23,970 nt of DNA, taken from positions 1 to 23,970 of the IMG/VR virus record IMGVR_UViG_3300032524_000183. One strand, written 5' to 3'. A program made the position numbers and the translations under genes. Source of the DNA: a virus. The notes under the pieces are model-generated. The model ran no database searches. It had not been told where the DNA came from and was given only the letters and a program-made list of their open reading frames with translations. Every line of letters starts with the position of its first letter. Position 1 is the stretch's first letter. This document shows, piece by piece, positions 56 through 23,970 of the stretch.

Positions 56-62
56 TTAAATC
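15..62. other. probable attL core at the tRNA-Glu 3' end
   Basis: Tyrosine-recombinase phages often integrate in the 3' half of a tRNA gene and restore the gene with phage-borne sequence. Here an integrase gene abuts a tRNA 3' end, which is the expected geometry. The limits are a guess, because the matching attR copy lies beyond the window and the core cannot be delimited. Confidence 0.5.
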
Positions 63-82
63 AATGACTTAGCGGAAATGTT

Positions 83-110
83 CGGGGATCGGGGAACTGC
101 CGGGGAACTG
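83..110 (+). repeat. short tandem repeats next to the integrase gene
   Basis: The 10-mer CGGGGAACTG occurs at 90-99 and again at 101-110 (11-bp period). It is preceded by a degenerate unit CGGGGATC at 83-90. The last unit also forms a small inverted repeat GGGAA/TTCCC that ends at 115. The position between the putative att site and int would suit integrase arm-type binding sites, but nothing in the sequence proves that. The rest of 56-122 shows no gene and no T-tracted terminator for the leftward operon. Confidence 0.5.
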
Positions 111-122
111 TTTCCCGTGGCC

Positions 123-1208
123 CTAATTTTCCTCGTTATCGCGCTTGGCGCGGCCGCGCCGGGCGGCTTCCCGATCGGGTAAAACGTAACCGCCCAGGAC
201 CGGGCTGGTGATGTTGTGGCCGCTGAAACTGATTATCTCGGCGTTGGTGGATCCGCGATTGCCCATTTCGGTCAGCGCCGTGGTGCGCAGATCATGGAAA
301 GTCAGGCCAGGGCGCACGCCGGCGCGGTCCTTAATCTTGCGGAATGCCCGGCCGAAAATATTCTTATCCGGGTAGGGCTGCGCGGTTTGTTCGGAAACGA
401 TCAAATGCGTCGAGGTCTTGTCGGTCGCCTCGATCATTTCCAGGCTGCGGGCGCCCAGGGGCAACCATAGATCCCGCCCGGCGCCGCGCCGCTTCATCTG
501 CCGCACGGTCAGCCCCTCGCCGTCATATTGGTTCCAGGTCAGGGCCAGGATATCCTGTTGCGGCAAGCTGGTGTCATAGGCGATCTGGATCGCCAGGGCC
601 ACCGACGGCCGGGCCTCGGCGATATTGCCCTGGGATGATCTGTGCGGCGCCAGGGCGGCCGCGATCACCGCGTCAACCTCGGCCGGCAACCACACGGCAT
701 CGCGCGCCGGTGGTTTCTGGATCTGCAAGCGCCGCGCCGGGTTGTTTTCCAGGCCGCCGAGTTCGATCGCGAATTCAAATAATCGATGCAACCATTTCAT
801 AATCTTGCGCGCCCGGTGCGGCGATCCTTCAAGCAATAATTCCGCATAATAGGCGCGGCAATCGGCCCGCTTTAGGGAGCGGACCAGGGCCGGGCCGAGG
901 GCGGCGCGGATCCGCTGGAAGGCATAGTCTATTTCATCCTGGGTGGCGGGCGCCTTGGCGGTATAGAAGATCGGGTCGACCAGGAAACGGTCGATCAGGC
1001 CGGCGATGGTGGCGGCGCTGGGTTTGGGCGCCGCCTTGGCGTGGCGCGCGGCATCGTGGGCGGCGTTTTGCAGGGCGACGTAGGCCTCGGCCGCAGCCCG
1101 ATCGGGGCCGAATGATTGGCCGCGAAAGCCGGCGCGGCGCATACTTTGGCTTGGCTTGAATTTGTAGTGTGTCGCGGCGCCTCGCCCGTCGATGATTAAA
1201 TGCTTCAT
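123..1208 (-). CDS. int: phage integrase, tyrosine recombinase
   Basis: Catalyses site-specific integration and excision. The 361-aa length is normal for a phage integrase. A SAM-like core-binding region lies around residues 65-160. The catalytic domain follows, with HDLR (His305, Arg308), GH (His331) and the nucleophile in GGYVLPD (Tyr341). A candidate beta-hairpin Lys is at 239. The first catalytic Arg, usually seen as T-G-x-R-x-G-D, is not there: the matching stretch reads DTSLPQQDIL, with Pro216 at that place. The gene is the last of the leftward operon, and its ATG overlaps the upstream stop by 4 nt (ATGA). The tRNA beside it supports the role. The enzyme family is sure; full activity is less sure because of the missing Arg. 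Confidence 0.93.
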   Translation of the reverse strand: MKHLIIDGRGAATHYKFKPSQSMRRAGFRGQSFGPDRAAAEAYVALQNAAHDAARHAKAAPKPSAATIAGLIDRFLVDPIFYTAKAPATQDEIDYAFQRIRAALGPALVRSLKRADCRAYYAELLLEGSPHRARKIMKWLHRLFEFAIELGGLENNPARRLQIQKPPARDAVWLPAEVDAVIAAALAPHRSSQGNIAEARPSVALAIQIAYDTSLPQQDILALTWNQYDGEGLTVRQMKRRGAGRDLWLPLGARSLEMIEATDKTSTHLIVSEQTAQPYPDKNIFGRAFRKIKDRAGVRPGLTFHDLRTTALTEMGNRGSTNAEIISFSGHNITSPVLGGYVLPDREAARRGRAKRDNEEN

Positions 1209-1366
1209 GGCCTAAAGATCCTTCCCATGGCGCGCCCGGCCAGGCGGCCGGCGGCGCGGCGGCCCAGGCGTTTGGCGATGCCCTTGGGGCCACGGCGCAC
1301 GGCATTAACGTCGCCCAGGTGGCGGGCGATGCGGTAGAGCCAGGTGCGGAGTTTTCCCAGGGTCAT
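1205..1366 (-). CDS. small basic protein of unknown function next to int
   Basis: A 53-aa, strongly basic protein: about a third of residues are Arg or Lys, mostly in the second half. The N-terminal segment MTLGKLRTWLYRIARHLGD could form one amphipathic helix. I chose the ATG at 1366 although the frame stays open further upstream. The upstream extension reads as low-complexity Arg/Ser/Pro shadow translation and overlaps the DNA-binding gene at 1401-1640. The stop overlaps the integrase start (ATGA at 1205-1208). Small basic proteins like this occur beside integrases in related prophages as far as I remember, but their role is unknown to me; DNA binding is plausible from charge only. Confidence 0.65.
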   Translation of the reverse strand: MTLGKLRTWLYRIARHLGDVNAVRRGPKGIAKRLGRRAAGRLAGRAMGRIFRP

Positions 1367-1400
1367 GGGGCGGGATCTTGGGCCGATCAGGGTGGCGCTG

Positions 1401-1640
1401 TCAATTGCCATGGCCGAAGCGGGCATCGAGCCAGGCGCGGCCCGGGTCAGCCTCGGCGCTCTGGTCGACGGCCAGCACGGCGTCGAGTTGCGCCGTCGAC
1501 CAGCGGCGCGGCTTACTGTTTGGCGCGATCGGTTGCGGCCAGGTGCCGGCCTTGACTTCGCGGAGAAATTGCGCCGACGAACGGGCGCCGACATAGCGGG
1601 CGGCCTCGGCCGTGGGCAGGGTGTTCGGCTGGTCGGTCAT
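1401..1640 (-). CDS. small helix-turn-helix DNA-binding protein, possible excisionase
   Basis: A 79-aa protein with the layout of AlpA/MerR-like winged-helix factors. It has a helix-turn-helix start (LPTAEAARYVGA), the segment FLREVKAGTWPQPI, which matches the 'wing' seen in AlpA-type proteins where a recognition helix is followed by PxPI, and then a W-containing helix (RRWSTAQLDAVLA). Its place two genes upstream of int in the same operon suits a recombination directionality factor (Xis), but a transcription regulator is equally possible. The start is the ATG at 1640, which overlaps the upstream stop by 4 nt. A longer frame extends to 1910 but runs antisense-like through the DUF4031 gene and was rejected. 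Confidence 0.8.
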   Translation of the reverse strand: MTDQPNTLPTAEAARYVGARSSAQFLREVKAGTWPQPIAPNSKPRRWSTAQLDAVLAVDQSAEADPGRAWLDARFGHGN

Positions 1641-1960
1641 GGGCTGGCCTGGGCCGTGGCGGCGAGGAAATCCGCCCAGGCGGTTGCGGGATCGGCCAGC
1701 GGCGCGTCGGCGGGGGCGAGGCCCATGCGGCGGATCGCCATCATGGCGGCGGCCTGGCACTGGGTGATTTCGACCGCGCCGGCCTCGACCGCCAGGGCGC
1801 GCTTGACCATGGCAATGTCGTAATGGTTGCCCTGATACCATCGCCGCGCCACGCCGATCAGGTCGGCCATGGCGTGCAATTCGGCCTCTGTGTCGGCGAT
1901 CATGTGGCACATGATCATACGGCGAAACGGGGCTTTCATATCGTCAACATAAACGGTCAC
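1637..1960 (-). CDS. DUF4031 family protein
   Basis: 107 aa with the DUF4031 pattern: TVYVDDM at the N-terminus, then RMIMCHMIADTEAELHAMAD, IGVARRWYQG and KRALAVEAGAVEIT. DUF4031 proteins are common in phages and actinobacterial or proteobacterial genomes, and their biochemical role is not established to my knowledge. I prefer the GTG start at 1960. It begins the protein at the conserved TVYVDD motif, overlaps the upstream stop as GTGA, and has a modest GGGAA 8 nt upstream. An in-frame ATG at 1975 adds five residues without a visible ribosome site. The stop overlaps the next gene by 4 nt. Confidence 0.85.
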   Translation of the reverse strand: MTVYVDDMKAPFRRMIMCHMIADTEAELHAMADLIGVARRWYQGNHYDIAMVKRALAVEAGAVEITQCQAAAMMAIRRMGLAPADAPLADPATAWADFLAATAQASP

Positions 1961-2331
1961 GGCAGCAATTCCCATTCGATTACGACGCCGTCAAAGGGCA
2001 GGCCGTGGGTTTTTTGGAACCATTCGAGCATTTCGCGGGCGTCAACAAAGCCGTCCGCGCGGGCAAACTGATTTTTGCCTTCGCCGGCGGTCAAGCGGCC
2101 GCCATTGATGCTTATCACCTGTTGTATGGTGATTTTGAATTCCGATACCCGCGATACTTTGCCTTCGCCCAGCTTGCGGCATTGTGTCGTTCTCATGCCG
2201 GTGTAGAGGGCCAGGGTGTCGCCGGGCTGGCAATGGGCGCGGCCGTCCTTGCGGTGGGCGCGGATGGTCTGGCCTTTCGCGCCGCTCTTGACGTCTGGCG
2301 CAAATCGCTTCTGGAAATTAAGAGCCGGCAT
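1957..2331 (-). CDS. ASCH/PUA-like domain protein
   Basis: 124 aa. The N-terminal half (NFQKRF, SGAKGQTIRAHRKDGR, CQPGDTLALYTGMRT) follows the phage ASCH-like pattern: a basic strand-turn (QTIRxxRKDG) followed by PGDTLxLYTG. ASCH domains are PUA-related beta-barrels that bind RNA or modified bases, so nucleic-acid binding is a reasonable inference. The C-terminus (FVDAREMLEWFQKTHGLPF) is a helix typical of these small phage versions. The ATG at 2331 was chosen because the frame upstream of it is a low-complexity shadow overlapping the coiled-coil gene. It overlaps that gene by 14 nt and is followed by the DUF4031 gene (GTGA overlap). Confidence 0.75.
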   Translation of the reverse strand: MPALNFQKRFAPDVKSGAKGQTIRAHRKDGRAHCQPGDTLALYTGMRTTQCRKLGEGKVSRVSEFKITIQQVISINGGRLTAGEGKNQFARADGFVDAREMLEWFQKTHGLPFDGVVIEWELLP

Positions 2332-2710
2332 TGTCGGGATCCCTTTCGTTTTTAATGATCGGAAATGTGCAGACGCGGCGGGTCGATGCCTCGACCATGG
2401 CCGGCACCCGCTTGGCCATATCCGCGACGATGGCCTCGGCCGTAATGGCGCGGCCTTCCATGCTGTCAAAGGCCGCGAAGGCGTCTTGCGCGCTTCTCGC
2501 GCCGCCGATCCGGTCGCGGTCGGCCGTGATGGCAACGATTTCGCCGCGCAGATCCGAAAGGCGGCTTTGCGCCTTGGCTTCGCTTTGGACCAGGGCGTCG
2601 GTTTCGTCCAGGAGGCTGTCGCGTTCGGCCTCAAGTTCGGCGATCCGTTCGGCCTGTCTGGCCGGCTTGGCTTGATCGGTGCGTTTGGTCTTGCTGGTGT
2701 TCGTGGCCAT
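2318..2710 (-). CDS. coiled-coil protein of unknown function
   Basis: 130 aa. A Lys/Thr-rich N-terminus (1-20) leads into a long heptad-like charged segment (about residues 20-70: ERIAELEAERDSLLDETDAL and on), so a dimeric coiled coil is likely. After residue 75 there is a short helical region (AFAAFDSMEGRAITAEAIVAD) and a C-terminal tail (RRVCTFPIIKNERDPDN). No catalytic motif is visible. The gene sits in the leftward operon 2 nt after the upstream stop and overlaps the next gene by 14 nt. Expression with the operon suggests an early phage function, otherwise unknown. Confidence 0.75.
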   Translation of the reverse strand: MATNTSKTKRTDQAKPARQAERIAELEAERDSLLDETDALVQSEAKAQSRLSDLRGEIVAITADRDRIGGARSAQDAFAAFDSMEGRAITAEAIVADMAKRVPAMVEASTRRVCTFPIIKNERDPDNAGS

Positions 2711-2712
2711 GG

Positions 2713-3036
2713 CTATGCCTTTCCGGTGGCGGCGGGCGGTGCGCTGAGGCGCAGGAATTCGGCGCTGGTGGTGCGGATGGCGGTAATGAAGGCGCGGTCG
2801 AAATCGGGCGGCTGTTTGCCCTTGGCTAAACCTTCAATGATGCGCCGCAGATCCGGGCCAAGGATTTCCTGCGGATCCATGGCGTTGACGTGATCGCGGC
2901 ACAGGCGCAGGCCCATGACCAGGGCCAGGGGCCGGTGCAGGTCGATGGCCCAGTCCCTGGCGGGCACGCAAAGCTTGGGCGCCCATTTCCCGGCGTGGGC
3001 GCAGCCGTCGCGCTGGCACGTTTCGGCGGCGGTCAT
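2713..3036 (-). CDS. small cysteine/histidine-containing hypothetical protein
   Basis: 107 aa. Cys7, Cys12, Cys23 and Cys46, with His14 and His49 nearby (CQRDGCAH, LCVPARDW, LCRDHVNAMDP), make a plausible zinc-binding N-terminal half. The rest is helical (PDLRRIIEGLAKG; DFDRAFITAIRTTSAEFLRL). I do not recognise the family. The start at 3036 is set by the ATGA overlap with the upstream gene; the longer frame upstream is an Arg/Pro-rich shadow. It could be a small nucleic-acid-binding or adaptor protein, but that is only inference. Confidence 0.7.
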   Translation of the reverse strand: MTAAETCQRDGCAHAGKWAPKLCVPARDWAIDLHRPLALVMGLRLCRDHVNAMDPQEILGPDLRRIIEGLAKGKQPPDFDRAFITAIRTTSAEFLRLSAPPAATGKA

Positions 3037-3623
3037 GGGGCGACCTTTGGCGGCGCGTCGGCGGGGCGCGGGCCATAGATTTCCGTCGCCACCGCCTCGA
3101 CCTGTTCGCGGGTGATGCCCGGCGCGGTATCCATCAGCGTTCCACGCACGAAGCTGACCCGTTGGTCCCATTTCTCGGCGGCGGTCATTTCGTGGAAGCG
3201 GGTCATGTCGAGCAATTTGTTTATTTTCTCGTCGGTTGCTACGAAGGCTGGCTTTGGGTTGGCGCGGTCCAGGCGGTCGATTTCGGCGGCGATCAGGGCG
3301 CCGGCCTTGACCAGCAGGTCGCGGCGTTCGGCGACGGTGTAGGTGGCGGGGTTGGGCAGGCGTCCGTCGCGATGCCATGCCGATCCCTCGCGGCAAGAGC
3401 CGTAGCGGTAGCGGTTGTCGAAGCCGTCGGACCAGGGCCAGGGATCCATGAAGACGCCGCCGGCGGCGCCGGGAAATTTCCTGAATATAGGATAGGGCGA
3501 TGCGTAGCAGGCCGCCGCCAGCGCCAGTTCGCCATTGGGGTGTTCGTCGTCGTGGTGGTCGTCAAAGCCTTCCACCTCGATCTGGCGGCGGCGTTCGGCG
3601 GCGATATCATCGATGGCGCTCAT
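3033..3623 (-). CDS. MazG-like phage protein (possible nucleotide pyrophosphohydrolase fold)
   Basis: 196 aa. The N-terminus (ERRRQIEVEGFDDHHDD, residues 10-26) followed by ELALAAACYA and later RRDLLVKAGALIAAEIDRLD (101-120) is the signature of a widespread phage family. I associate it with all-alpha MazG/dATP-dGTP pyrophosphohydrolase-like folds, whose acidic and His residues bind metal. The insert between the helices (PWPWSDGFDNRYRYG) is typical of the family. A second segment (130-196, DEKINKLLDMTRFHEMTAAEKWDQR) is less familiar. Hydrolysis of (d)NTPs is an inference; catalytic residues were not checked against a structure. The ATG at 3623 gives ATGA coupling with the upstream gene; an upstream ATG at 3638 is possible. 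Confidence 0.78.
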   Translation of the reverse strand: MSAIDDIAAERRRQIEVEGFDDHHDDEHPNGELALAAACYASPYPIFRKFPGAAGGVFMDPWPWSDGFDNRYRYGSCREGSAWHRDGRLPNPATYTVAERRDLLVKAGALIAAEIDRLDRANPKPAFVATDEKINKLLDMTRFHEMTAAEKWDQRVSFVRGTLMDTAPGITREQVEAVATEIYGPRPADAPPKVAP

Positions 3624-3946
3624 GTGCGTTGCTCCCATTGGGTCTTTCCGGTCAAGGGGCCGGGTTTTGAGGGCGGCGTCGCCATGGCGGCGGCTAGGTC
3701 GGTCAAGGCCCACGGCTCGCCTTCCACGAATGCCTTGATGAAGACGCCGCGCCGGGCGTCGCCGGCGATCTGGTTGGCGGCGTATTCGAGGGCCGCCAGG
3801 GCGTCAGGGTATCGGCCCGCGCGGTCATTCAGGCGCGCGATTTCGGCGCCGGCGTTGTCGATGAAATTGGCGGCCGCGCGCTTGTCGGGTGCGTGGAGCG
3901 CGCGCCGGGCCTCGGCGGTGGTGGGGAATTTTGCATTTCCGTGCAT
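3620..3946 (-). CDS. hypothetical protein, leftward operon
   Basis: 108 aa, helix-rich (TTAEARRALHAPDKRAAANF, DALAALEYAANQIAGDARRG). A short conserved-looking part, VFIKAFVEGEPWALTDLAAA, lies before a Pro/Lys tail. The family is not recognised. The start at 3946 is favoured by a strong AAAGGA ribosome site 6 nt upstream; the upstream in-frame ATG at 4015 has none and lies in a hairpin. Unlike its neighbours, this gene is not overlapped by the upstream gene: a 128-bp gap with a strong hairpin separates it from the ParB-like gene, so it may be expressed partly on its own. Confidence 0.72.
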   Translation of the reverse strand: MHGNAKFPTTAEARRALHAPDKRAAANFIDNAGAEIARLNDRAGRYPDALAALEYAANQIAGDARRGVFIKAFVEGEPWALTDLAAAMATPPSKPGPLTGKTQWEQRT

Positions 3947-3966
3947 GGCGGATCCTTTCAAGATTG

Positions 3967-4013
3967 GCACCGGCGCCGGCGGCAGGGAGAGTGTGGCACC
4001 GCCGGCGCCGTGC
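3967..4013. other. strong hairpin in the only real gap of the leftward operon
   Basis: GCAC-C-GGCGCCGGCGG (3967-3982) pairs with CCGCCGGCGCCGTGC (3999-4013): a 15-bp, almost all G-C stem with one bulged C at 3971 and a 16-nt loop. It lies between the ParB-like gene (ends 4075) and the gene starting at 3946. On the transcribed (minus) strand the sequence after the stem is AATCTTGAAAGG, not a U-run, so it is not a classical terminator. An mRNA processing or stabilising element, or an attenuator, is possible. Confidence 0.55.
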
Positions 4014-4074
4014 ATCGCCGCCGAAGTCCGCCCCGATCCTCGGCAAAAGGAAGGGCGGGTGGCGGCGAATGGGG

Positions 4075-6333
4075 TTATGGTTTTGCCGTTGCCTCTGTTT
4101 TTGGCTTCGGCGCGGCGTCGCCGCCGCCGTCAATGGCGGCGATCATGCCGGCGCGGTCGGCGAAGGTCAGTTCGGGCGGGATCCAGCCGACGGGCAGTTG
4201 GCCGGCCAGTTCCGTCACCAGTTCGGCCTTTGACTTCGGGCGGGTCGGGTCGCCGCACAGGTCGGAATGGTGGGTGGCGGTGACGCCGTGCGCCATGGCC
4301 TGCAAGCGCGGCAGCCGGAACATGCCGAGAAATTCCGTCAAGTCCCTGGGTGTATCGACCGGGCTGTCGGCCTGCGCGCCAGTGGCCTCGGCAATGGCCA
4401 GGGTCAATTCGCTGTCGCCCAGGGTGGGTTGATAGCCGGGCCAGCAACCGACCTGGCGGGCGACAAGATGCTGAAAGATCTCGGCACAATGGCCGGGGTT
4501 GGCGGTCAACCAGCGGAAGGTGGCGGCATCATCGACGCTGTCGGTCCGCCAGCCGTCGCCGGTGATTTTCAGGGCGCCGGCCTTTGCCAGGGGCGCCAAC
4601 AGCGCCTTGGTATCGGCGATCAATGCCGGGTGGCCGTCGGGCGCCATGTCGTCGGGGCTGAACGGGTCGGCGCTGATCTTGACTTCGCCGGCGCCGTAGC
4701 GGTGCAACAGGGGCAGGATCACCAGGGCCATGGCGACCGCCTCCATATGGCCGTGGCCAATATTGGGGTGGGCGATGGCCCGCTGCAAGGCCTTGGTCTT
4801 TTCGCCCTGGCAAAGAATGATCGTCTTGCCGGTGACGGTTGCCGATGGCAGCTTGACGGCGGGTTCGGTGGTGGTGGTGCCGGTATTGGTGTCGGCGTCG
4901 GTGTCGGCCTTGCCTTTGCCGGCGTCGCGAAGATCGATATAGTCGACGCGAATTTGCACGGTCAGGGCGGTGTCGTAGATGATCAGGGCGCCGGCCCTGG
5001 GATCGTCCGGGCTGACGCGCTGATAGTTGCTGCTTTCGCCGTCGGCGTAGTCGCGCTTGGCGATGCGTTTGACCCAGGCGTATTGCCCGGCCAGTTCGGC
5101 CTCTTTGGCATCGATGGCGGCGGCCTGCAAACGGCGATATTGCACCATGTCCTCGAAATAGCCTTCGCCGTATAGCAGCGGCGCGATGGCTTTGCCGTTC
5201 TCGATCGCGGTGTCGCCGTTGGCATCCAGGATGATGCCGTCATAGAGCGCCAGATCAAACAGGGCCTGGCCGACCAGGGGGCTTTCCAAAGCGAGGCGGT
5301 CGCGGCTATCGCCGGCGTCCCAGCCATAGCCCTGGGCGATTTCGTCCAGGCATTCGGCCTGCAATTCACGGCTGGCCATGGTCAACACCTGGGCATGATC
5401 CAGGCTGATAGTGCCAGCAACCAGGGCGCCTTGCGCCTCTGGCGTCAGGGAGGTTGACAGGCGCAGGCGCTTTTGCACATAGCGCCGCGACATGCCGATG
5501 GCCTCGGCGATCCGCGCCGTCGCCCTGCCATCCCCATCCGCTCTATCGCAATAGGCCCGGAAGGCGTTGGCTTCATCCATGGGGGATAGGTTTTCGCGCT
5601 GTAGATTTTCCGTCATGGCGGCGAACAATACCTGGTCGTCGGAAAGATCGCGGACCAGGACCGGCACGATGTAGCTGTCGGCGTCGATCCTGCCGTCGTC
5701 GGCCAATTTATGGAGGGCGCGCAGGCGGCGGTTGCCGGCAATGACTTCGAAGCGCACCAGGTCGCCGACTTCATCGTCGGTGCGGTTTTCGGGGCTGGGC
5801 CGGGCGACAAGGTTTTGCAGCAGGCCCTGGGCCAGAATGCTATCGGCCAAGGCGGCGATTTCGCCGGCGTCAAAAATGGTGCGGGGGTTGAGCGGGCAGG
5901 CGTCAAGGTCGGCGACGGCGATATATTGCAGTTCGCCGCCATGATCACCGGCAATGGCGCCGGTGCTGAAACCGTTACTGTCCAGGCTTGGCGAACGGCG
6001 TTCGCCGCCGTCCATTTCGACAAGGTCGGCGTCGGCGGTGGGGGCCTTGTCGGCGGCGGCGATGGAGGCGACGGCGGCGCGGCCCAGGGCCGACAATGTG
6101 TCGGGCTTGCGTTGCAACAGGCCCTTGTCGACCAGTTCTTTCAGGGCGTTGCCGACGGTCGATTTGCCTATGGCCAGGGCCTTGCCGGTATCGGGGACAC
6201 TGGGCAGATCCTCGCCGCGTTCAAGGGTGGCGCCGGCGAAACCGAGGACCAGGACGGCATTCTCGGAGAGGCTGGCCAGGGCGGCGATATAGGAGGCGGC
6301 GGTGAATGTGGTGACGTGAGCGGTGGCGTTCAT
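4075..6333 (-). CDS. large ParB-like protein with an N-terminal winged-helix domain
   Basis: 752 aa. Residues about 15-95 look like a winged helix (SLSENAVLVLGFAG, IGKSTVGNALKELVDKGLLQ). After a linker, residues 135-250 are a ParB/Srx-type domain with a CPLNPR strand, GNRRLRALHKL (200-210, the GxRRxRA box that forms part of the CTP-binding pocket in ParB) and MTENLQRENLSPMDEA (240-255). A helix-turn-helix follows (ATARIAEAIGMSRRYVQKRL, 271-290). A linker rich in Asp/Thr (474-490) leads to a helical C-terminal domain (about 500-735) seen in plasmid and phage ParB-like proteins. No ParA is visible, so a role in gene regulation or DNA compaction rather than partition is likely. A GGGAG site lies 10 nt upstream of the ATG, which overlaps the upstream stop (ATGA). 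Confidence 0.85.
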   Translation of the reverse strand: MNATAHVTTFTAASYIAALASLSENAVLVLGFAGATLERGEDLPSVPDTGKALAIGKSTVGNALKELVDKGLLQRKPDTLSALGRAAVASIAAADKAPTADADLVEMDGGERRSPSLDSNGFSTGAIAGDHGGELQYIAVADLDACPLNPRTIFDAGEIAALADSILAQGLLQNLVARPSPENRTDDEVGDLVRFEVIAGNRRLRALHKLADDGRIDADSYIVPVLVRDLSDDQVLFAAMTENLQRENLSPMDEANAFRAYCDRADGDGRATARIAEAIGMSRRYVQKRLRLSTSLTPEAQGALVAGTISLDHAQVLTMASRELQAECLDEIAQGYGWDAGDSRDRLALESPLVGQALFDLALYDGIILDANGDTAIENGKAIAPLLYGEGYFEDMVQYRRLQAAAIDAKEAELAGQYAWVKRIAKRDYADGESSNYQRVSPDDPRAGALIIYDTALTVQIRVDYIDLRDAGKGKADTDADTNTGTTTTEPAVKLPSATVTGKTIILCQGEKTKALQRAIAHPNIGHGHMEAVAMALVILPLLHRYGAGEVKISADPFSPDDMAPDGHPALIADTKALLAPLAKAGALKITGDGWRTDSVDDAATFRWLTANPGHCAEIFQHLVARQVGCWPGYQPTLGDSELTLAIAEATGAQADSPVDTPRDLTEFLGMFRLPRLQAMAHGVTATHHSDLCGDPTRPKSKAELVTELAGQLPVGWIPPELTFADRAGMIAAIDGGGDAAPKPKTEATAKP

Positions 6334-6581
6334 GTCTTGTATTCTCCCTGTGGGTTAAGTCTGTACCAATGGCTGTTACGGTTGCGGCGCCAGCGTTCGT
6401 TGGTCCGGGCATGGCGGACGCCGACCCGGCCCATGAAGTTGGCGACCGGGTAATTTTTATCGAGGAAATCCTGGGCGGCCCGGCGCGTTGCATGGCGGAT
6501 GGCGCTGTCCCTGCCGTTCGGCAGTTCGATGATCCAGGGCGGCAGGCAGGGTTCGCGCCGGGGTGTCGTGGCGTCGATCAT
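6330..6581 (-). CDS. small hypothetical protein
   Basis: 83 aa, basic. The middle (LPNGRDSAIRHATRRAAQDFLDKNYPV) looks like a helix that starts after a short strand. The C-terminus is rich in Arg, Asn and aromatic residues (NERWRRNRNSHWYRLNPQGEY), which would suit contact with nucleic acid. No family is recognised. It sits between two ATGA overlaps (6330-6333 with the ParB-like gene and 6578-6581 with its upstream neighbour), which supports it as a real gene in a coupled operon. Confidence 0.68.
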   Translation of the reverse strand: MIDATTPRREPCLPPWIIELPNGRDSAIRHATRRAAQDFLDKNYPVANFMGRVGVRHARTNERWRRNRNSHWYRLNPQGEYKT

Positions 6582-6886
6582 TGGCTGGCCTCCCCACCGG
6601 CGGCCTGACCGCCGGCATCTTCAAGATTGCGGGCGGCTTTAGCCGCGCGCATGAGAGCGCGGCGGGCGCGGGGCAGGGTGGCGTAATGGCCCAGCACGGT
6701 CAGGTCGGGGGTGATGGCGCGCCAGCAGCGGCGGCCGGCATGTTCGGGGTGTTCGACCCGGCGGGCGCGGCCCAGCTTTATATAGCCGTCGCGCAGAATG
6801 CGGATCTGGCCCAGGCGAACGCCCCGGCCATGGGCCGGCGCCACGCCGCCGCCGGATAGGATGGAAAGATGCCAGCGGGCGGTCAT
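6578..6886 (-). CDS. small hypothetical protein
   Basis: 102 aa. The N-terminal half is beta-like (RWHLSILSGGGVAP, RLGQIRILRDGYIKLGRAR). The second half has WRAITPDLTVLGHYATLPRA and a basic helix (RARRALMRAAKAARNLED). The family is not recognised. The start at 6886 is fixed by the 4-nt overlap with the upstream stop; the longer frame to 6955 is an Arg-rich shadow of that gene. It belongs to the coupled leftward operon. Confidence 0.68.
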   Translation of the reverse strand: MTARWHLSILSGGGVAPAHGRGVRLGQIRILRDGYIKLGRARRVEHPEHAGRRCWRAITPDLTVLGHYATLPRARRALMRAAKAARNLEDAGGQAAGGEASQ

Positions 6887-8095: not shown

Positions 8096-8138
8096 GACCG
8101 CTATCTCCGTTCCGTTCGGTATGTTCGGTGACGGTGGG

Positions 8139-8167: not shown

Positions 8168-8245
8168 GAAAAATAATAATCGAATACGGGTTTATGAATT
8201 GTTTTCCGGTTCTGCTACCGTGTTTGCAGCCGTTGGGGGAAAGCC

Positions 8246-8587: not shown

Positions 8588-8616
8588 GCTGGCGTGGTTG
8601 ATGGAATAGAGCCGCA

Positions 8617-16922: not shown

Positions 16923-16923
16923 C

Positions 16924-17142: not shown

Positions 17143-18767
17143 GCCAGCGCAGTTTGTTTGATCGCGCCGCGTTGGCAATTTCGCCGCGCTGGGCCGCCCG
17201 GCGTGCCGCCGATCGCCTGGCCTATGACGCTGTGTATTCCGCCGCCGCCGGTTATAGCGGCGGCCGGTCGGATCGCCGGCCGACGTTTAACTGGCGCCCT
17301 GGCGGTGGATCCGCCGACGCCAATATCATGCCGACCTTGGAGAGTTTGCGCGGCCGGGCGCGGGATGCGTCACGCAATGCCCCGATCGCAACGGCGGCCC
17401 TGGGCCGAAATGTTACGTTCGTGGTTGGCGACGGTTTGCGCGCGCAACCGCAAATCGATCGCGAGGTGGTCGGCCTGGATCCCACCGCCGCCGGGAAATG
17501 GGAATTATCGGCCGGCCGCGCCTGGCGCTTATGGGCTGAAAGTGACGCCTGCGATGCGTCGCGATCGCTCGATTTTGCCGGCTTGCAGGAATTGGTTTAT
17601 CGGGCCGCGCTCGATAGCGGCGACGTTTTTGTCGTGCTGCGCGATGTAAAGCGGCCCGGCTGGCCTTATGGCCTGGCCTTGCAGGTATTCGAGGCCGACC
17701 AGGTCAGCAATCCCAACGGCCAGCGCGACGGCACCGAATTGAAAAGCGGCAATAAAATCGTCGGCGGCGTCGAGCTGGACGAATATGGCGCGGCGGTGGC
17801 GTATCATTTCCAAAATGTGCATCCTGGCAACGTGGCCGGGCGTGCGGATCGGACGTGGTCGCGGGTGCCAACCTGGTCGCCCGAATTGGGCCGGCGCCAG
17901 GTGTTGCACCTGTATGACAAATTGCGGCCCGGCCAGACGCGCGGCGTCCCTTTCATGGCGCCGGTGGTCGAGCAATTAAAGCAATTGACCAGCTATTCGG
18001 AGGCTGAATTAACGGCCGCCGTGATTTCGGCCATGATTGCAATTGTTCACAAGGGATCCGGCACGCCGTTACCTAACGTGGATCCCAACAATAACCTGGC
18101 CCCGGCTGGGCCGGCCCGCGAATACAAAATGGCGCCGGGCGTGGTTCTGGATCTGGGCAAGGAAGACGAAGTCACCTCGCTAAACATGGGCCGGCCCAAT
18201 CCCGAATTTGATCCATTCTATACCGCCGTGGTCGGTCAGATCGCCGCCGCGATCGATATCCCCAGGGAAGTTTTATTAATGCACTTTGTGGCCAGCTATT
18301 CGGCCAGCCGTGCGGCCCTGGAAATGATGGCGCAATTCGTCCGTCGCCGGCGGTCCTGGTTGACCCGTCGCTTTTGCGCGCCGGTCTATGGCGCCTTGAT
18401 TACCGAGGCGATCGCGGCCAATCACCTGGCCGCGCCGGGATTGTTCGAGGATGCCATGGTTCGCCAGGCCTGGCTTGGCTGCGCCTGGATCGGCCCGAAA
18501 CAAATGTCGCTCGATCCCATGAAGGAAAACAAGGCCGACGAAATCGCCGTCGCCCATGGCTGGAAAACCGACCAGGAAGTCACGGCGGAAAAAACCGGCG
18601 GCGATTGGGACCGCAACATTGGCCGCCGCAAACAGGAAATTGCCCTGGCTGCCGACGCCGAGGGTATGGGCCACAACGGCGGCCCGGCCCTGGATCCCGA
18701 AGATAACAACGACTTGCCCGGTCCCGACTTAGAAGACGCCTTGCAAAAATTGGAGGATCAGCAATGA
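17139..18767 (+). CDS. portal protein, lambda family
   Basis: 542 aa, standard for lambda gpB-like portals. The N-terminus shows YDAVYSAAAGY, RARDASRNAPIATAALGRNV and FVVGDGLRAQP, family hallmarks. Later come HLYDKLRPGQTRGVPFMAPV and PREVLLMHFVASYSASRAAL, the conserved C-terminal block where the portal builds the channel and clip. The portal is the dodecameric DNA gate at the head vertex, working with GpA. The acidic tail (EDNNDLPGPDLEDALQKLED) may reach the scaffold. ATG overlaps the gpW-like stop, and its own stop overlaps the protease by 4 nt. Confidence 0.96.
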   Translation: MSQRSLFDRAALAISPRWAARRAADRLAYDAVYSAAAGYSGGRSDRRPTFNWRPGGGSADANIMPTLESLRGRARDASRNAPIATAALGRNVTFVVGDGLRAQPQIDREVVGLDPTAAGKWELSAGRAWRLWAESDACDASRSLDFAGLQELVYRAALDSGDVFVVLRDVKRPGWPYGLALQVFEADQVSNPNGQRDGTELKSGNKIVGGVELDEYGAAVAYHFQNVHPGNVAGRADRTWSRVPTWSPELGRRQVLHLYDKLRPGQTRGVPFMAPVVEQLKQLTSYSEAELTAAVISAMIAIVHKGSGTPLPNVDPNNNLAPAGPAREYKMAPGVVLDLGKEDEVTSLNMGRPNPEFDPFYTAVVGQIAAAIDIPREVLLMHFVASYSASRAALEMMAQFVRRRRSWLTRRFCAPVYGALITEAIAANHLAAPGLFEDAMVRQAWLGCAWIGPKQMSLDPMKENKADEIAVAHGWKTDQEVTAEKTGGDWDRNIGRRKQEIALAADAEGMGHNGGPALDPEDNNDLPGPDLEDALQKLEDQQ

Positions 18768-20236
18768 CCGCCGCGTTTGATCTGGCAATGGCCGAGGCCT
18801 GGGCGATGGCCGAAAAACCGCTTCTGACCCTTTTCGATATTGCCGCCCGCACGAATGAAACGCCGGCGGCGATCGAAACGCAATTGGGTCGCCCATTGGT
18901 CAATAGCCAAAAAACCACTATCCGCGATGGTGTCGCCATGGTGCCGATCGCCGGCCCCATATTCCGCCGGGCTAATCTGTTCACCCAGATTTCGGGCGCC
19001 ACGTCTAATGAGGTTCTGGCCCGTGATCTGCGCGCCGCCGCCGATGATCCCGCCGTTACGGCGATCCTATTGGCGATCGATAGCCCCGGCGGCGAGGTCA
19101 ACGGGACCAACGAAGTCGCCAAGCTGGTCGCGACGATCCGCGACGAAGGCAATAAGCCGATCGTCGCTTATGTTTCGGGCATGGCCGCCTCGGGGGCCTA
19201 TTGGATCGCCAGCGCCGCCAGTAAAATTTATGTCGATGAAACCGCATTGCTGGGATCAATCGGCGTGATTGCCGGTTTTACCGACCGTAGCGAAATGCCC
19301 GGCCAACCGAAAAAAATAACGATCATTTCCAGCCAATCGCCGAACAAGGCGCCGGATCCCACAACGGATGCGGGCCGGGCGACGATCCGGGCGACGGTTG
19401 ACGGGCTGGCCGAGGTGTTTATCGCCCAGGTCGCCGCCGGCCGCGACGTATCGGTCGAAACCGTCAAGGAAGATTTTGGCCAGGGCGATGTTTTGATCGG
19501 CGCGGCGGCGGTGGCCGCCGGCATGGCCGACGGCATTGCCACCCATGAGGAAGTTCTCGCCGGGCTTATTGCCGGCACAATTGCCGACGCGGATCCGCGC
19601 CCGGCTTCACCCCAGCATAGAGGTACTGGAAAAATGGTTACGAAAAACGCGGATCAGATCCGTGCAGAGCATCCCGAGGCTTTTGCCGAAATCAGCGCCA
19701 CGGCGCGCAAGGAAGGCGAGATCGCCGGCGATGCCCTAGGCCGCCAGGCCGGGCATGATGAAGGCCTGGCCGTTGGCATTGCTGCCGGCAAGGCTGAAGG
19801 CCTGGCGCTGGGCGCCGACGCCGAGCGCCTGCGCGTGGTGGCCTTGGAAGCCGTGGCGTTGCCCGGCTACGAACCTTTGCTGGCTGCCCACAAGGCCGAC
19901 GCCGCCCTGACTGATACGGATCTAATGCGCGCCCAGGTCGATGCGCAAAAGGCAAAGGGTGGGCAGGCGATTGCGGCTACGGCGGCCGACGAACAAACCC
20001 TGGCGATCGATTTGCCGCAACCGGCGGCGAGTGCCAGCGGTACGCCAGCGGTCCAGGCCGTGATCGTCGAGGGCGACGAGGAAGGCGCAGTCGCCGCCGA
20101 CAAGGCGGAATGGTCGGCTAATTCTGCCCTGCGGGCCGAATTCAACCTTAGCGGCGAGGCTGGCTATCTGGCCTATGCCAAGGCCGCGCGGGCCGGCACG
20201 ATTAAGGCGCCGGCCGTGATGATGGTTCCGGCCTAG
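18764..20236 (+). CDS. S49 prohead protease, gpC-like, with C-terminal scaffold part
   Basis: 490 aa. The SppA/S49 domain spans about 50-265: ILLAIDSPGGEVNG (101-114), the nucleophile in GMAASGAYWIAS (Ser143) and ALLGSIGV. A candidate catalytic Lys is at 195 in SPNKAPDP, as in single-domain S49 enzymes. The C-terminal 200 residues (Ala/Asp/Lys-rich, helical, with GRQAGHDEGLAVGIAAGKAE) resemble the scaffold part of lambda gpC, which is also made separately as Nu3. The protease clears scaffold during head maturation. An in-frame internal start at 19634 with its own ribosome site is listed separately. Confidence 0.93.
   Translation: MTAAFDLAMAEAWAMAEKPLLTLFDIAARTNETPAAIETQLGRPLVNSQKTTIRDGVAMVPIAGPIFRRANLFTQISGATSNEVLARDLRAAADDPAVTAILLAIDSPGGEVNGTNEVAKLVATIRDEGNKPIVAYVSGMAASGAYWIASAASKIYVDETALLGSIGVIAGFTDRSEMPGQPKKITIISSQSPNKAPDPTTDAGRATIRATVDGLAEVFIAQVAAGRDVSVETVKEDFGQGDVLIGAAAVAAGMADGIATHEEVLAGLIAGTIADADPRPASPQHRGTGKMVTKNADQIRAEHPEAFAEISATARKEGEIAGDALGRQAGHDEGLAVGIAAGKAEGLALGADAERLRVVALEAVALPGYEPLLAAHKADAALTDTDLMRAQVDAQKAKGGQAIAATAADEQTLAIDLPQPAASASGTPAVQAVIVEGDEEGAVAADKAEWSANSALRAEFNLSGEAGYLAYAKAARAGTIKAPAVMMVPA
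19634..20236 (+). CDS. probable nested scaffold protein (Nu3-like), in frame within the protease gene
   Basis: An ATG at 19634 (residue 291 of the protease) is preceded by AGAGG at 19619-19623, 10 nt away. It would give a 200-aa protein that begins MVTKNADQIRAEHPEAF, exactly where the protease domain ends and the scaffold-like region begins. In lambda, Nu3 is made the same way from within gene C. The arrangement is by analogy; the internal start is supported only by the ribosome site and domain boundary. Confidence 0.55.
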   Translation: MVTKNADQIRAEHPEAFAEISATARKEGEIAGDALGRQAGHDEGLAVGIAAGKAEGLALGADAERLRVVALEAVALPGYEPLLAAHKADAALTDTDLMRAQVDAQKAKGGQAIAATAADEQTLAIDLPQPAASASGTPAVQAVIVEGDEEGAVAADKAEWSANSALRAEFNLSGEAGYLAYAKAARAGTIKAPAVMMVPA

Positions 20237-20290
20237 TCCGAAAACTCTAACAACAACCGCCGCCCTGGGCGGTCGGTCACAAGTCTAACC

Positions 20291-20305
20291 TTGCAATGAT
20301 TGCAA
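20291..20305. promoter_or_regulatory. 15-bp palindrome before the cement-protein gene
   Basis: TTGCAATGATTGCAA is a perfect odd palindrome (7-bp arms around G). It is followed by AAAAATTGAGGTAGG and the ATG at 20324. It could be an operator or just a small mRNA hairpin near the ribosome site. A separate hairpin (ACCGCC/GGCGGT, 20256-20273) lies upstream without a T-run. Confidence 0.35.
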
Positions 20306-20323
20306 AAAATTGAGGTAGGAAAA

Positions 20324-21091
20324 ATGACGACTTTGGCAGTTGATACCCCTCGCCGGTTTACGCCGTTCGGGACCGACGTCGACGCATTCGGCGTGATCGC
20401 GTCGGATACTATTTATGAAGGTTCCGCCGTTGGCGATAACGGTTCGGGCTATGGCCGGCCGTTGGTTTCGGCAGATCCGTTTCGCGGCTTCGCCCTGCAA
20501 AAGGCCGACAATTCGGCCGGCGCCGCCGGTGCCCTTAACGTCAAGGTTCAAACGCGCGGGCAGATCCGCCTGGCGATTACCAGCCTGGGCATTACCGACG
20601 TAGGCCGCCCGGTCTATGCGGCCGACGACAATACCTTCGCCCTGACCGGCTTGGGCACTTATATCGGCCGGGTGGTGCGGTACGAAAGCACCGGCGTGGG
20701 CATTGTCGCTTTCGATGTTATGTCGCCCGAGCGGGAATTGATCGTTCCTATTGCCCTGACGCTCGCCAACCTGGCCGATGGCGACGTCGTAACCGCCTAT
20801 ACGCCGGGCTTTCCGGGGCGGATCAAGGCGCTGGATTTTGCCGTCCTGGTGGCGGTGACGACGGCGGCGAAACTGTCGACGCTAAATGCCGAAATTAACA
20901 CCACCAACGTCACGGGCGGCGCGGTTGCCTTGACGTCGGCCAATTGTACGCCGATCGGTAAGGTTGTCGCCGGATCCGCGGTTTCCGCCGCCAATGCTTT
21001 CGATATTAACGACACGATATCGATCGAGGCGGCCAGCACCACCACCTTTGTCGAAGGCTCGGGCGTCCTACTGGTCAAGCTGGGGTACTAA
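20324..21091 (+). CDS. capsid cement/decoration protein (DUF2190-like) with extra C-terminal domain
   Basis: 255 aa. Residues 1-140 follow the DUF2190/cement pattern: a short N-arm, then beta-strands with FGVIASDTIYEGSAVG, FRGFALQKADNSAG, VKVQTRGQIRLAI and GRPVYAADDNTFALTG, ending in FDVM. Such proteins stabilise the capsid at three-fold or local positions. Residues about 147-255 form a second beta-rich region (LANLADGDVVTAYTPGFPGR; LSTLNAEINTTNVTGGAVAL; GSGVLLVKLGY) not part of a plain cement protein. The start at 20324 has GAGGTAGG 4-5 nt upstream. Confidence 0.82.
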   Translation: MTTLAVDTPRRFTPFGTDVDAFGVIASDTIYEGSAVGDNGSGYGRPLVSADPFRGFALQKADNSAGAAGALNVKVQTRGQIRLAITSLGITDVGRPVYAADDNTFALTGLGTYIGRVVRYESTGVGIVAFDVMSPERELIVPIALTLANLADGDVVTAYTPGFPGRIKALDFAVLVAVTTAAKLSTLNAEINTTNVTGGAVALTSANCTPIGKVVAGSAVSAANAFDINDTISIEAASTTTFVEGSGVLLVKLGY

Positions 21092-21176
21092 TCCGGCGGG
21101 CGTCTGCCTGCCGCGCTAAATGTTTAATCCGTCGCCGCCGCCAATGGCTACGCGACAAATCTAGGGAAATTGAAAA

Positions 21177-22133
21177 ATGAGTGCTTTAGGTCTTGGCAGC
21201 CGGGCGATCCTCGGCTTACTTCACATGCGGTTGGAACAGGGCGCGATCGGTTGGATCGACCGCCTGGCTATGGCAATTAGCAGCGACCAGGCGTCGGAAA
21301 CCCATAAATGGCTCGGCATGTCGCCGGCCATGCGCGAGCATGTCGGCGGCCGTTTGGTGCATGGCCTGCGCGAGCAGGGGATTACGATCACCAACTCGAA
21401 TTTCGAGGCAACCATAGCGGTCATGCTTGACGAAATTCGCCGGGACAAAACGGGCCAGGTCGTGCAGCGGATCAACGGTCTGGCGGCACGCGCTAACAGC
21501 CACGGCGCCGGCCTGTTGTCGACATTGATTTTGAACGGCGAAAGCACGGTTTGCTATGATGGCCAGTTCTTTTTTGATACCGATCATTCCGAGGGTGATA
21601 GCGGCACCCAGGACAACGATATCCAGGTCGACGTTTCAGCCCAGGCCGTGCCGACCGACGAACAGGGTTCGACGACGGCACCGAGCGCGAAAACCATGCG
21701 CGAGGCAGTCTTGCAGGGGATCCAGCAAATCCTGGGCTTTGTCGATGATCAAGGCGAGCCGATCAACGAAGGGGCCAGCGAATTCATGGTGATGGTTCCG
21801 ACGCCGTTCTGGTCCTCGGCCGTTGCGGCTGTTGTCACGCCGACCTTGGCGGGTGGCGAGACAAACGTCCTGGCTGGGTTGCCGGGCATGTCGTTGAGCG
21901 TGGTGCCTAATCCGCGTCTGACCTGGACCGATACCTTTGCCGTCTTTCGTGCCGATGGTAGCGACGGCGGTGCGCCGTTTATCAAGCAAGAGGAAGTGCC
22001 CTTGACGACGCCATACCAGGCCGAGGGCAGTCCCGAGGAATACCATAACGGCCGGCATCTTTACTCCGTCGATTGGACCGGGCAAGTCGGCTATGGCTTC
22101 TGGCAGCACGCTTGCCAGGTGAAACTTATCTGA
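21177..22133 (+). CDS. major capsid protein, Mu gpT-like
   Basis: 318 aa. Conserved gpT blocks are plain: HKWLGMSPAMREHVGGRLVH, GITITNSNFEATIAV, DEIRRDKTGQVVQRINGLAA and LILNGESTVCYDGQFFFDTD, then HSEGDSGTQDND. The C-terminal half includes PFWSSAVAAVVTPTLAGGET and LSVVPNPRL. gpT is the HK97-fold shell protein of Mu and its relatives. It follows the cement gene and is followed by a strong terminator. AGGGAAA precedes the ATG by about 7 nt. Confidence 0.95.
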   Translation: MSALGLGSRAILGLLHMRLEQGAIGWIDRLAMAISSDQASETHKWLGMSPAMREHVGGRLVHGLREQGITITNSNFEATIAVMLDEIRRDKTGQVVQRINGLAARANSHGAGLLSTLILNGESTVCYDGQFFFDTDHSEGDSGTQDNDIQVDVSAQAVPTDEQGSTTAPSAKTMREAVLQGIQQILGFVDDQGEPINEGASEFMVMVPTPFWSSAVAAVVTPTLAGGETNVLAGLPGMSLSVVPNPRLTWTDTFAVFRADGSDGGAPFIKQEEVPLTTPYQAEGSPEEYHNGRHLYSVDWTGQVGYGFWQHACQVKLI

Positions 22134-22150
22134 TTTTGGGTTGATGGGTG

Positions 22151-22187
22151 CGGCGGCCAGGCTCGGGTCTGGCCGCCGTTATTTTTT
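22151..22187 (+). terminator. rho-independent terminator after the major capsid gene
   Basis: CGGCGGCCAG (22151-22160) and CTGGCCGCCG (22169-22178) form a perfect 10-bp stem with loop GCTCGGGT, followed by TTATTTTTT. This is a textbook intrinsic terminator, 17 bp after the capsid stop. It may set the level of capsid transcript relative to the genes after it, which have no separate visible promoter. Confidence 0.92.
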
Positions 22188-22231
22188 GGCGCGACGCCAT
22201 GCGGGCGCGCGCAGTCGGGAGAATTTCGGTT

Positions 22232-22984
22232 ATGCAAGTTTTTACTGTTACGTCAATTTTTGTCGGGTTCGAGATCGGCGCGATCCTGGCCCTGGACGCA
22301 AACCAGGCCGCGCGCCGGGCGCATAATATCCGCCCCTTGCTCGGCGATCCGGCCACGTTGCAAAAGCTGGTTGATGACCTAGGCGAGGAGGTGTGCACGG
22401 CCATTGCCAGCTATTGCGGGGCGACCGATCGGCAGCCCTTCGAGGTGGTGCGGGCCGTTCAGTTCAAGCGCGGCGAGGAAGTCGCGGTTATTCGTTCGGG
22501 TTCGTTAAACAAGGCATTTCTGCAAAACCTGGCGCCGGCCGAAAGTGACGCCGCCCGTGCGGTGGTTGCCGCCGTTGCCGAGGCAGTGGAACACGGCAAT
22601 CAGGTGAAGGCCGACCGTGCCGCCGGCGCGCGTGATTTGGCCGCCGTGAGGGCCGCAGGCAAGGGCGCAGGCACCAAATCGCGGCGGGCCGAGGGCAAGC
22701 TAAACCGGGCCGAGGTCAAGGCGGTTAAGGCTGCCATGCTTAAGCTGGATCCCGCCGACGTGGCCCATTGGACCCTCGACGGCAAACCCAATGCCCAGGT
22801 ATTGGGTGAAAAGGTTGGTTTTGTCGTTTCGGGCGATAACCGCGACGCAATTTTCGCGGCCATGGTGAAGGCCAAGGCCATCACGCCGCCTACCGCGATC
22901 GCCGGTGGCGGCGAAACCGACGGCCCAAATGGTGGCAATATGGCGGACGGCGGCGGCGCGGCTACCAATCCGGGCCTGATCTAA
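22232..22984 (+). CDS. hypothetical structural protein downstream of the capsid gene
   Basis: 250 aa. The start reads VFTVTSIFVGFEIGAILALD, then NQAARRAHNIRPL, typical of small proteins beside Mu-type capsid genes. The middle (LAPAESDAARAVVAAVAEAV; KADRAAGARDLAAVRAAGKG) is Ala-rich and helical. The end carries LDPADVAHWTLDGKPNAQVL, a 'DPxxxxHWTxDGxP' motif common in phage proteins of this region. No enzyme is indicated; a head completion or connector role fits the neighbours. The ATG at 22232 has GGGAG 10 nt upstream; the frame to 22148 would include the terminator and was not used. Confidence 0.78.
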   Translation: MQVFTVTSIFVGFEIGAILALDANQAARRAHNIRPLLGDPATLQKLVDDLGEEVCTAIASYCGATDRQPFEVVRAVQFKRGEEVAVIRSGSLNKAFLQNLAPAESDAARAVVAAVAEAVEHGNQVKADRAAGARDLAAVRAAGKGAGTKSRRAEGKLNRAEVKAVKAAMLKLDPADVAHWTLDGKPNAQVLGEKVGFVVSGDNRDAIFAAMVKAKAITPPTAIAGGGETDGPNGGNMADGGGAATNPGLI

Positions 22985-22987
22985 ACC

Positions 22988-23299
22988 ATGGCCGTCGAAA
23001 GCGCCGCTGATCTGGCCGGGTTTTTCGCGCCTGGCGAGTTCGGCGTCGCGGCCACCTATACGCCTGCGGGCGGGCCTGCGGTCGCCGTGACGGTGCAGCA
23101 TTTGCAGCCGTTGGTGGCCGCTGATCTGGGCGGCGCCGATGTCATGGTTCGCCGGCGGTCGGTGTTGTTGCAGGCTGTGGAGGTCGCAACGCCGGTGCGG
23201 GGCGATACGGTCACCATCGATGCGGCTGTTTATACCGTTGTCAACGCCGAACTGGACGGCCTAGGCGTGCTTTGGACCGTCGGGCTAAAGGGCGGGTAG
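22988..23299 (+). CDS. head-tail joining protein, gpFII-like
   Basis: 103 aa, a short beta-barrel-like protein: FFAPGEFGVAATYTPAGGPA, VAVTVQHLQPLVAA, DVMVRRRSVLLQAVEV, PVRGDTVTIDAAVYTVVNAE, GVLWTVGLKGG. The spacing 'FGxxxtYtp.....V...f' and 'P..GD.v...g..Y.V' is that of lambda FII/Gifsy-type head-tail joining proteins. Such proteins cap the head after packaging and let the tail bind. It starts 3 nt after the upstream stop; the next gene starts right at its stop. Confidence 0.85.
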   Translation: MAVESAADLAGFFAPGEFGVAATYTPAGGPAVAVTVQHLQPLVAADLGGADVMVRRRSVLLQAVEVATPVRGDTVTIDAAVYTVVNAELDGLGVLWTVGLKGG

Positions 23300-23914
23300 A
23301 TGGCGAATATCGGCGTCGATGTGGTTTCCGGCGGCCCTGGCCGGCGTGGGGTCGGGGTGGCGCGCGCGGTCAAGAAAATCATTGATCGGGAAATTGCCGA
23401 CCTGGACGCCGCGACCGAGAAGGGCGTCAAGGCGACGGGCAAGACGTTAAACGATCGGTTGCGCGGAGAGACGCGCCGGGCCGGTCTGAAAAAACTAGCC
23501 GGCACCTGGCGCCTGAATAAATACCAATCGGGATTTAAGACAGCGGCCTTTGTCTATTCCAAGGCCCAGGCAATCATGGAACTGGCCGACAAGGGCGGGA
23601 CGGTGCGGCCGAAGCGAACGAAATATCTGGCGATCTGGTTGCCGGCGGCCGGGCGAACGGCGGGATCCGGCGGCGGGCGTCGGAGTAAAACGCCGGCGGA
23701 TTTTATCGGCAAGAAAAATATTCATTTCATCCCGCCGCGCGGCAAGTCGCCTGCGCGCCTGGTGCGGGTGACAAAGTCACGGGTAACGCTGTTGTTCTTT
23801 CTGGTCAAGCAAACCCGCCACCACAAGCGGATCAATATCGCGGCCGCCGCGCGGGCGGCAAATGAAAACCTGGCGCCGAATATTCTAAAGGAAATGCGGA
23901 GGGGTGCGGCATGA
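23300..23914 (+). CDS. DUF6441-like head-tail protein
   Basis: 204 aa, very basic. The first half (ARAVKKIIDREIADLDAATE, RLRGETRRAGLKKLAGTWRL, NKYQSGFKTAAFVYS) and 'IMELADKGGTV' followed by YLAIWLP correspond to a family I associate with DUF6441, encoded between head-tail joining and tail genes. A Gly/Arg loop (GRTAGSGGGRRSKTP) and PPRGKSPARLVRVTKSRVTL follow. Its exact place in the neck is not known. The stop overlaps the next ATG (ATGA, 23911-23914). Confidence 0.8.
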   Translation: MANIGVDVVSGGPGRRGVGVARAVKKIIDREIADLDAATEKGVKATGKTLNDRLRGETRRAGLKKLAGTWRLNKYQSGFKTAAFVYSKAQAIMELADKGGTVRPKRTKYLAIWLPAAGRTAGSGGGRRSKTPADFIGKKNIHFIPPRGKSPARLVRVTKSRVTLLFFLVKQTRHHKRINIAAAARAANENLAPNILKEMRRGAA

Positions 23915-23970
23915 CGACGGCCAGGGTGGAAGCTGTCATGGCGGCGCTGGTGGCGCAAGTCACGGCGGCG
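23911..23970 (+). CDS. partial CDS at window end, probable head-tail or tail-terminator gene
   Basis: Only the first 20 codons are in the window (MTTARVEAVMAALVAQVTAA). The ATG overlaps the preceding stop by 4 nt, as elsewhere in this phage. By position it should be a tail-terminator or minor tail gene, but 20 residues cannot show that. Confidence 0.6.
   Translation, partial: MTTARVEAVMAALVAQVTAA

Follow-up and report, generated by a model that had tools for sequence, protein, structure and literature searches.

The window examined here, 23,970 bp of viral DNA (IMG/VR record IMGVR_UViG_3300032524_000183, positions 1–23,970), carries the left part of a temperate phage from which the word GANTC, the mark of the alphaproteobacterial cell-cycle methylase CcrM, has been almost completely lost. 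A program count finds two sites, GACTC at 36 and GAGTC at 9453, the first in a host tRNA gene and the second in the repressor gene of the phage, as had been reported in an earlier reading made by eye (the sequence-only reading). The near-absence is confirmed as real and strong. The data show selection at the codon level, a step in GANTC content at the boundary with host DNA, depletion of further palindromes and a second occurrence in a diverged phage. The best explanation, to which we give a probability of about 0.6, is that the phage has rid itself of type II restriction sites, among them GANTC as the target of an enzyme against which CcrM would protect the host.

Depletion of GANTC

Against the two sites present, 79.7 are expected in the window under an order-1 Markov model and 36.4 under a maximal-order one; the figure of about 80 given in the sequence-only reading thus agrees with the low-order model and is too high for the other. 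The G+C content, put near 64%, is 63.7% by count. A comparison with permuted words under a Markov model had also been proposed, and in it GANTC is the lowest of the 16 words of the form XYNY'X', with GTNAC (56/55.6, observed/expected) and CANTG (74/71.7) at their expected frequencies.

A second IMG/VR record, G001 (IMGVR_UViG_3300033064_003691, 32,485 bp), contains the whole window at 2301–26270 with 8 mismatches in 23,970 bases (99.97% identity) and is longer on both sides. Its phage part, 30,130 bp long, has 1 GANTC where Markov orders 1, 2 and 3 predict 98.7, 82.7 and 44.7, and its host flank, including the tRNA gene, has 5 in 2,355 bp (Fisher test on bases, p = 1.1e-5). A gene in this flank has an 88% identical counterpart in the alphaproteobacterial metagenome-assembled genome BS150m-G9 (locus L012, genome G003; about 61% G+C), which is a relative of the host and not the host itself. 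Seven stretches of G003 hold 139 GANTC in 133,487 bp, 0.32 of the order-2 expectation, in line with the general under-representation of the word in alphaproteobacteria (PMC3973325). At the G003 rate 31.4 sites would be found in 30,130 bp (P(≤1) = 8e-13), and the densities are 0.03 per kb in the phage and 1.04 per kb in G003. The observed to expected ratio is 0.055 in the window (maximal-order Markov) and 0.02 in the phage part of G001, both below the cut-off of 0.1 for site elimination, although these are Markov ratios and thus another measure than the bias measure used in PMC6286503.

Selection at the codon level

Gene limits are approximate, the calls having come from a simple script that filters on codon position. 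Shuffling the synonymous codons of the called phage genes gave 50.8 ± 5.5 GANTC sites (minimum of 500 shuffles, 36), against the 1 present. GANTC arises whenever a TCN serine codon comes directly after a codon for Asp or Glu. After these two residues the window phage writes serine 43 times as AGY and once as TCN, as against 131 AGY and 243 TCN elsewhere (Fisher 4e-17). A change of serine from TCN to AGY takes two substitutions. Since the proportion of serines that follow Asp or Glu (10.5%) is similar to that of Asp plus Glu overall (11.8%), the change in this phage lies mainly in the codons. Selection against GANTC, acting at the codon level, is therefore supported.

Other words lost, kept or enriched

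The sequence-only reading had held the gap to be specific to GANTC. GATC is indeed common, but several other palindromes are about equally depleted. Compared with synonymous shuffles, the coding DNA of the window phage is low in CCGCGG (2/42.6), CCCGGG (1/21.7), GGGCCC (0/13.4), CTNAG (5/32.8) and CTGCAG (0/10.5), normal for GTNAC (56/58.5) and CANTG (80/81.7), and over-supplied with GATC (247/172), CCNGG (359/292) and CGNCG (785/547). When this phage is pooled with the prophage of genome G151, described below, the ratios for CTCGAG, GAGCTC, ACGCGT, CACGTG, GCTNAGC, CCCGGG, CCGCGG, GGGCCC and CTNAG are 0.00–0.06. Most of these lost palindromes are known type II restriction sites. Each phage also has private losses, CGATCG in G151 (0/39.9) and CTGCAG in the window (0/10.9), which is the pattern that different restriction repertoires would give. 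Avoidance in G003 is partial: CCGCGG 71/123, CCCGGG 50/83, GGGCCC 44/63, CTNAG 70/168 and CTGCAG 21/49.

Two non-palindromic pairs, TCGCA/TGCGA (6/20.5, 6/16.0) and ACGAG/CTCGT (8/17.9, 0/11.5), are also low on the coding strands of the window.

A second prophage nearly free of GANTC

Matches to PF05876 (GpA-type terminase) were present in 51 of 385 alphaproteobacterial genomes, and 52 of the matches listed were surveyed within 13 kb of the terminase. Lowest among the order-2 ratios for GANTC are those of L136 of genome G151 (0.03) and L128 of G178 (0.05), the others ranging from 0.15 to 1.15; pooled, the other alphaproteobacterial prophages give 0.61 for GANTC, 0.97 for GTNAC and 1.05 for CANTG. 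L128 was rejected as a case of its own, its host being itself poor in GANTC: the 20 kb around the ccrM-like gene of G178 (L175) hold 6 sites, 0.13 of the order-2 expectation, which is unusually few for host DNA.

On contig C24 of G151 the first 40,849 bp contain 2 GANTC and the other 19,840 bp contain 21; the prophage boundary was placed by this step and not by an attachment site. Eleven proteins of the G151 prophage match those of the window phage at 29–39% identity and are arranged alike, from the helicase through to the tape measure. Its genes contain 2 GANTC against 59.4 expected, with serine after Asp or Glu written 36 times as AGY and once as TCN; here the residue pair itself is reduced, 5.9% of serines following Asp or Glu versus 11.9% Asp plus Glu overall. 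It avoids the same palindromes as the window phage, plus the private ones.

In both phages a surviving GANTC lies in the immunity region, inside the helix-turn-helix (HTH) repressor gene of the window (9453) and, in G151, in a gene adjoining an HTH gene (L160 9452 on C24). Such a region may possibly be a recently swapped module.

A PF01555 methylase gene lies within 8 kb of the terminase in 21 of the 44 assessable alphaproteobacterial GpA-type prophage regions (just upstream in, for example, L106, L109, L110, L114, L116 and L119), often in an open frame of about 400–500 aa; the ParB-like gene of the window phage lacks that domain. A trade-off in which a phage either avoids GANTC or methylates it was considered and rejected. 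Over 45 regions (the window and 44 of the 52, eight being dropped for a short upstream side or lack of a ratio), the median GANTC ratio was 0.50 with a PF01555 gene within 8 kb (n = 21) and 0.605 without (n = 24; p = 0.56), and all three ratios of 0.1 or less fell in regions without one.

Viral relatives and number of origins

A search with the window terminase gave no relatives in genome contigs and only the twin record in viral contigs, and among 15 genomes of the host order one had a terminase match, which was partial. Portal and helicase scans gave one distant phage, G002, with 86 GANTC in 47.6 kb. A portal-alignment scan returned one distant locus, a scan with the G151 terminase none, and a class-wide portal search the same genomes again. 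A scan with a two-row terminase alignment yielded 47 loci, of which 46 were new viral ones, some of them near-duplicates. Coding GANTC ratios in these lie between 0.19 and 1.32, with no value close to zero.

The window falls into one group with L190–L199 (100/99) in a tree built from 23 selected terminase rows. L190 shares 48% identity with it in the terminase and 59% in the major head protein. Both L190 and L191 are closer to the window than is G151, and they have GANTC ratios of 0.99 and 0.84 and ratios of 0.92 and 1.04 for a set of eight of the lost palindromes. The G151 prophage groups with rows whose GANTC ratios are 0.34–1.13 (95/91). Since G151 shows both traits while phages nearer the window show neither, GANTC elimination probably arose twice, as judged from one gene in phages that are mosaic. 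Two members of the window group, L192 and L198, have nearly the same terminase (branches 0.02 and 0.075) and contain 11 and 19 GANTC in 22 kb; they offer a pair for following site loss or gain.

The host and CcrM

The sequence-only reading had named GANTC as the target of the alphaproteobacterial CcrM. An alphaproteobacterial host with CcrM is supported indirectly, through the match of the flank gene to G003, which has a CcrM-type gene (PF01555 plus a RAMA domain) beside an open frame that by eye looks like rnhB; each of five further relatives likewise has a CcrM-sized PF01555 gene. The sequence-only reading had also noted no methyltransferase gene. We found none in G001 by PF01555, PF05869 or similarity to phiLM21_p027, a result that covers the phage up to the end of G001, which stops before the right end of the phage.

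CcrM in the host does not appear to be sufficient by itself for phage GANTC avoidance, as indicated by seven named phages of alphaproteobacteria, whose hosts presumably have CcrM. Over stretches of 19–30 kb four of the seven show no coding GANTC deficit: Erythrobacter R16L (1.41), Rhizobium X2_30 (1.05), RcSaxon (0.98) and phiCbK (1.17). The others are HTVC010P (0.69), Paracoccus Psul1 (0.34) and phiLM21 (0.33), of which the last two have integrase genes and ratios like that of G003 coding DNA (0.32). Outside the alphaproteobacteria, Xanthomonas AhaSv gives 0.99 and E. coli mEp043 0.76.

Possible causes of the depletion

Methylation-dependent timing, effects of hemimethylated DNA and restriction had been offered as causes in the sequence-only reading. 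Of these, restriction accounts best for the data, since the losses include many other type II-like palindromes; methylation timing fits less well, because four of the seven named phages lack a coding deficit. In the explanation that we prefer, the phage would have been under long and strong selection to lose GANTC plus many other palindromes, and type II enzymes within its host range would cleave these words in unmodified DNA. CcrM would shield the GANTC sites of the host itself, so that a GANTC cutter could be carried without a partner methylase. We infer both the existence of such an enzyme and the role of CcrM as its shield.

Several observations weigh against this explanation. Temperate phages are reported to eliminate type II sites less often (PMC6286503). 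Searches confined to methylase families turned up no GANTC-cutting enzyme, a HinfI-type profile search not having been made. PF01555 gives one gene in G003 and one in G151. Of 16 genomes (15 from the host order and G151), just 4 have PF00145 methylases, with G003 and G151 not among them, which leaves little direct indication that these hosts carry many restriction systems, the other type II methylase classes having been searched only in part. G003 is itself partly low in CTGCAG and CTNAG (0.42), CACGTG (5/15.7) and GCTNAGC (7/25.1). The G151 prophage carries a PF05869 methylase without useful similarity to phiLM21_p027, and the presence of a PF01555 gene close by is no guide to GANTC content. 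Finally, avoidance of GANTC and avoidance of palindromes are uncorrelated over 51 prophages (rho -0.06, p 0.68; the window and 50 of the 52 regions, two being too short).

That the phage avoids CcrM methylation itself is considerably less probable. In such a case methylated or hemimethylated sites would make phage replication or transcription depend on the host cell cycle, by way of GcrA or a similar factor, and would have been lost with no cutting involved. CcrM is present in host relatives, GANTC is low in G003 and in the pooled prophages, where GTNAC and CANTG are not, and GANTC is missing from pelagiphages and from a Pelagibacter provirus, in whose hosts no restriction system had been seen (PMC9516812). 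Yet the loss spans coding DNA and not promoters alone, R16L, X2_30, RcSaxon and phiCbK keep their sites, and the loss of the other palindromes is left unexplained. A habit of composition shared by the whole lineage, or an aversion to palindromes in general, GANTC being just one word among many, would account for the many low palindromes of the window phage and the G151 prophage. This is improbable, in that L190 and L191 have neither trait, GATC is in excess with GTNAC and CANTG normal, and the two kinds of avoidance do not correlate. As a by-product of such an aversion GANTC loss is not supported, for L111 (1.10), L115 (0.88) and L205 avoid palindromes and keep GANTC; the pressure therefore acts word by word. 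Decay by mutation without selection, for instance through a methylation-linked bias, is the least credible of these. GANTC survives in the host DNA flanking the prophage, the loss extends to palindromes that do not contain GANTC, and the 43 to 1 preference for AGY is not one-step decay, since each change takes two substitutions.

Comparison with known systems

Type II site elimination by phages has been published (PMC6286503). Those phages share with ours a double-stranded DNA genome and palindromic type II sites at less than one tenth of expectation; ours differs in being temperate, by its integrase and attachment site, and in that the cognate enzyme is only postulated. The word GANTC, which is the specificity of HinfI (PMC5537653), does not occur in the main text of PMC6286503. 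Closest in the word itself are the pelagiphages, about half of which (of 33), together with the provirus of Pelagibacter NP1, are depleted of GANTC in a CcrM-type alphaproteobacterial host, past or unseen restriction being offered as a cause; there the depletion partitions the phage phylogeny (PMC9516812). The window phage belongs to another group, with a GpA-type terminase, another host lineage and 64% G+C, and here there are also the loss of other palindromes, a codon-level test and a host–phage step on one contig. A Pelagibacter host does not fit, given the flank gene match to BS150m-G9 at about 61% G+C; Pelagibacter phage HTVC010P has 33%. Literature searches on GANTC depletion turned up no account of this phage group.

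Phages such as phiLM21 carry their own GANTC methylases (PMC5537653, PMC7139368). The CcrM word matters to these phages too, but they methylate it, whereas in ours the sites are gone and no methylase was found in G001; phiLM21 keeps 29 GANTC in its first 30 kb. Solitary type II enzymes, for which protection by orphan methylases has been suggested, are described from four alphaproteobacterial orders (PMC3488263). Such an enzyme, with an orphan methylase as its shield, would be the cutter proposed here, though these enzymes are predictions from sequence and none was identified in this host.

Genome organization

ARAGORN places a tRNA-Glu(CTC) gene at 2280–2355 of G001, that is, from -20 to 55 of the window, and window 1–55 (plus strand) is therefore the 3' part of this host gene. 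It contains the host-side GANTC (36–40) and is the probable left attachment site. The left end of G001 is host DNA with a PF04748 deacetylase gene. To the right of the tRNA the phage left arm (56–9452) has no GANTC. The sole phage site (9453–9457) is at codon 222 of the HTH repressor-like gene (9074–10120, minus strand; PHROG 8, PF01381), and the DNA beyond it (9458–23970; replication, packaging and head genes) is again without the word, the gap running on to the end of G001.

Also on the minus strand are a tyrosine integrase (123–1208; PHROG 1, PF00589) and the 752-aa ParB-like protein (4075–6333; PHROG 4715, PF02195, PF17762), in which a methyltransferase domain was not found. The plus strand encodes a primase/helicase-like protein (11595–13163; PHROG 6088, PF08706, PF19263), the terminase small subunit (14281–14865; PHROG 57), the GpA-type terminase large subunit (14862–16922; PHROG 15 and the terminase tree), the portal protein (17070–18767; PHROG 21), the head maturation protease (18764–20236; PHROG 53) and the major head protein (21177–22133; PHROG 371). 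A tape-measure gene stands shortly before the end of G001, and the right end of the phage lies beyond it. A 511-aa open frame at 10255–11790, overlapping the start of the helicase-like frame, has no PHROG or Pfam match. The stretch 1446–1516 matches its own reverse complement at 76% and may be an imperfect palindrome.

Implications

We regard this phage as a strong case of a known phenomenon, type II site elimination. The loss of cut sites is a known phage strategy; such completeness in a virus that integrates into the chromosome is unusual. With two diverged temperate phages that have shed nearly all copies of the CcrM word, and relatives retaining it as controls, there is a concrete route to asking whether the alphaproteobacterial cell-cycle mark also serves defence. 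As a tentative extension, CcrM might in some alphaproteobacteria be the self-mark of a split restriction system in which a stand-alone GANTC nuclease destroys unmethylated DNA on entry, some temperate phages having responded by removing nearly all GANTC from 30–40 kb. If this is true, the cell-cycle mark would double as an immune mark.

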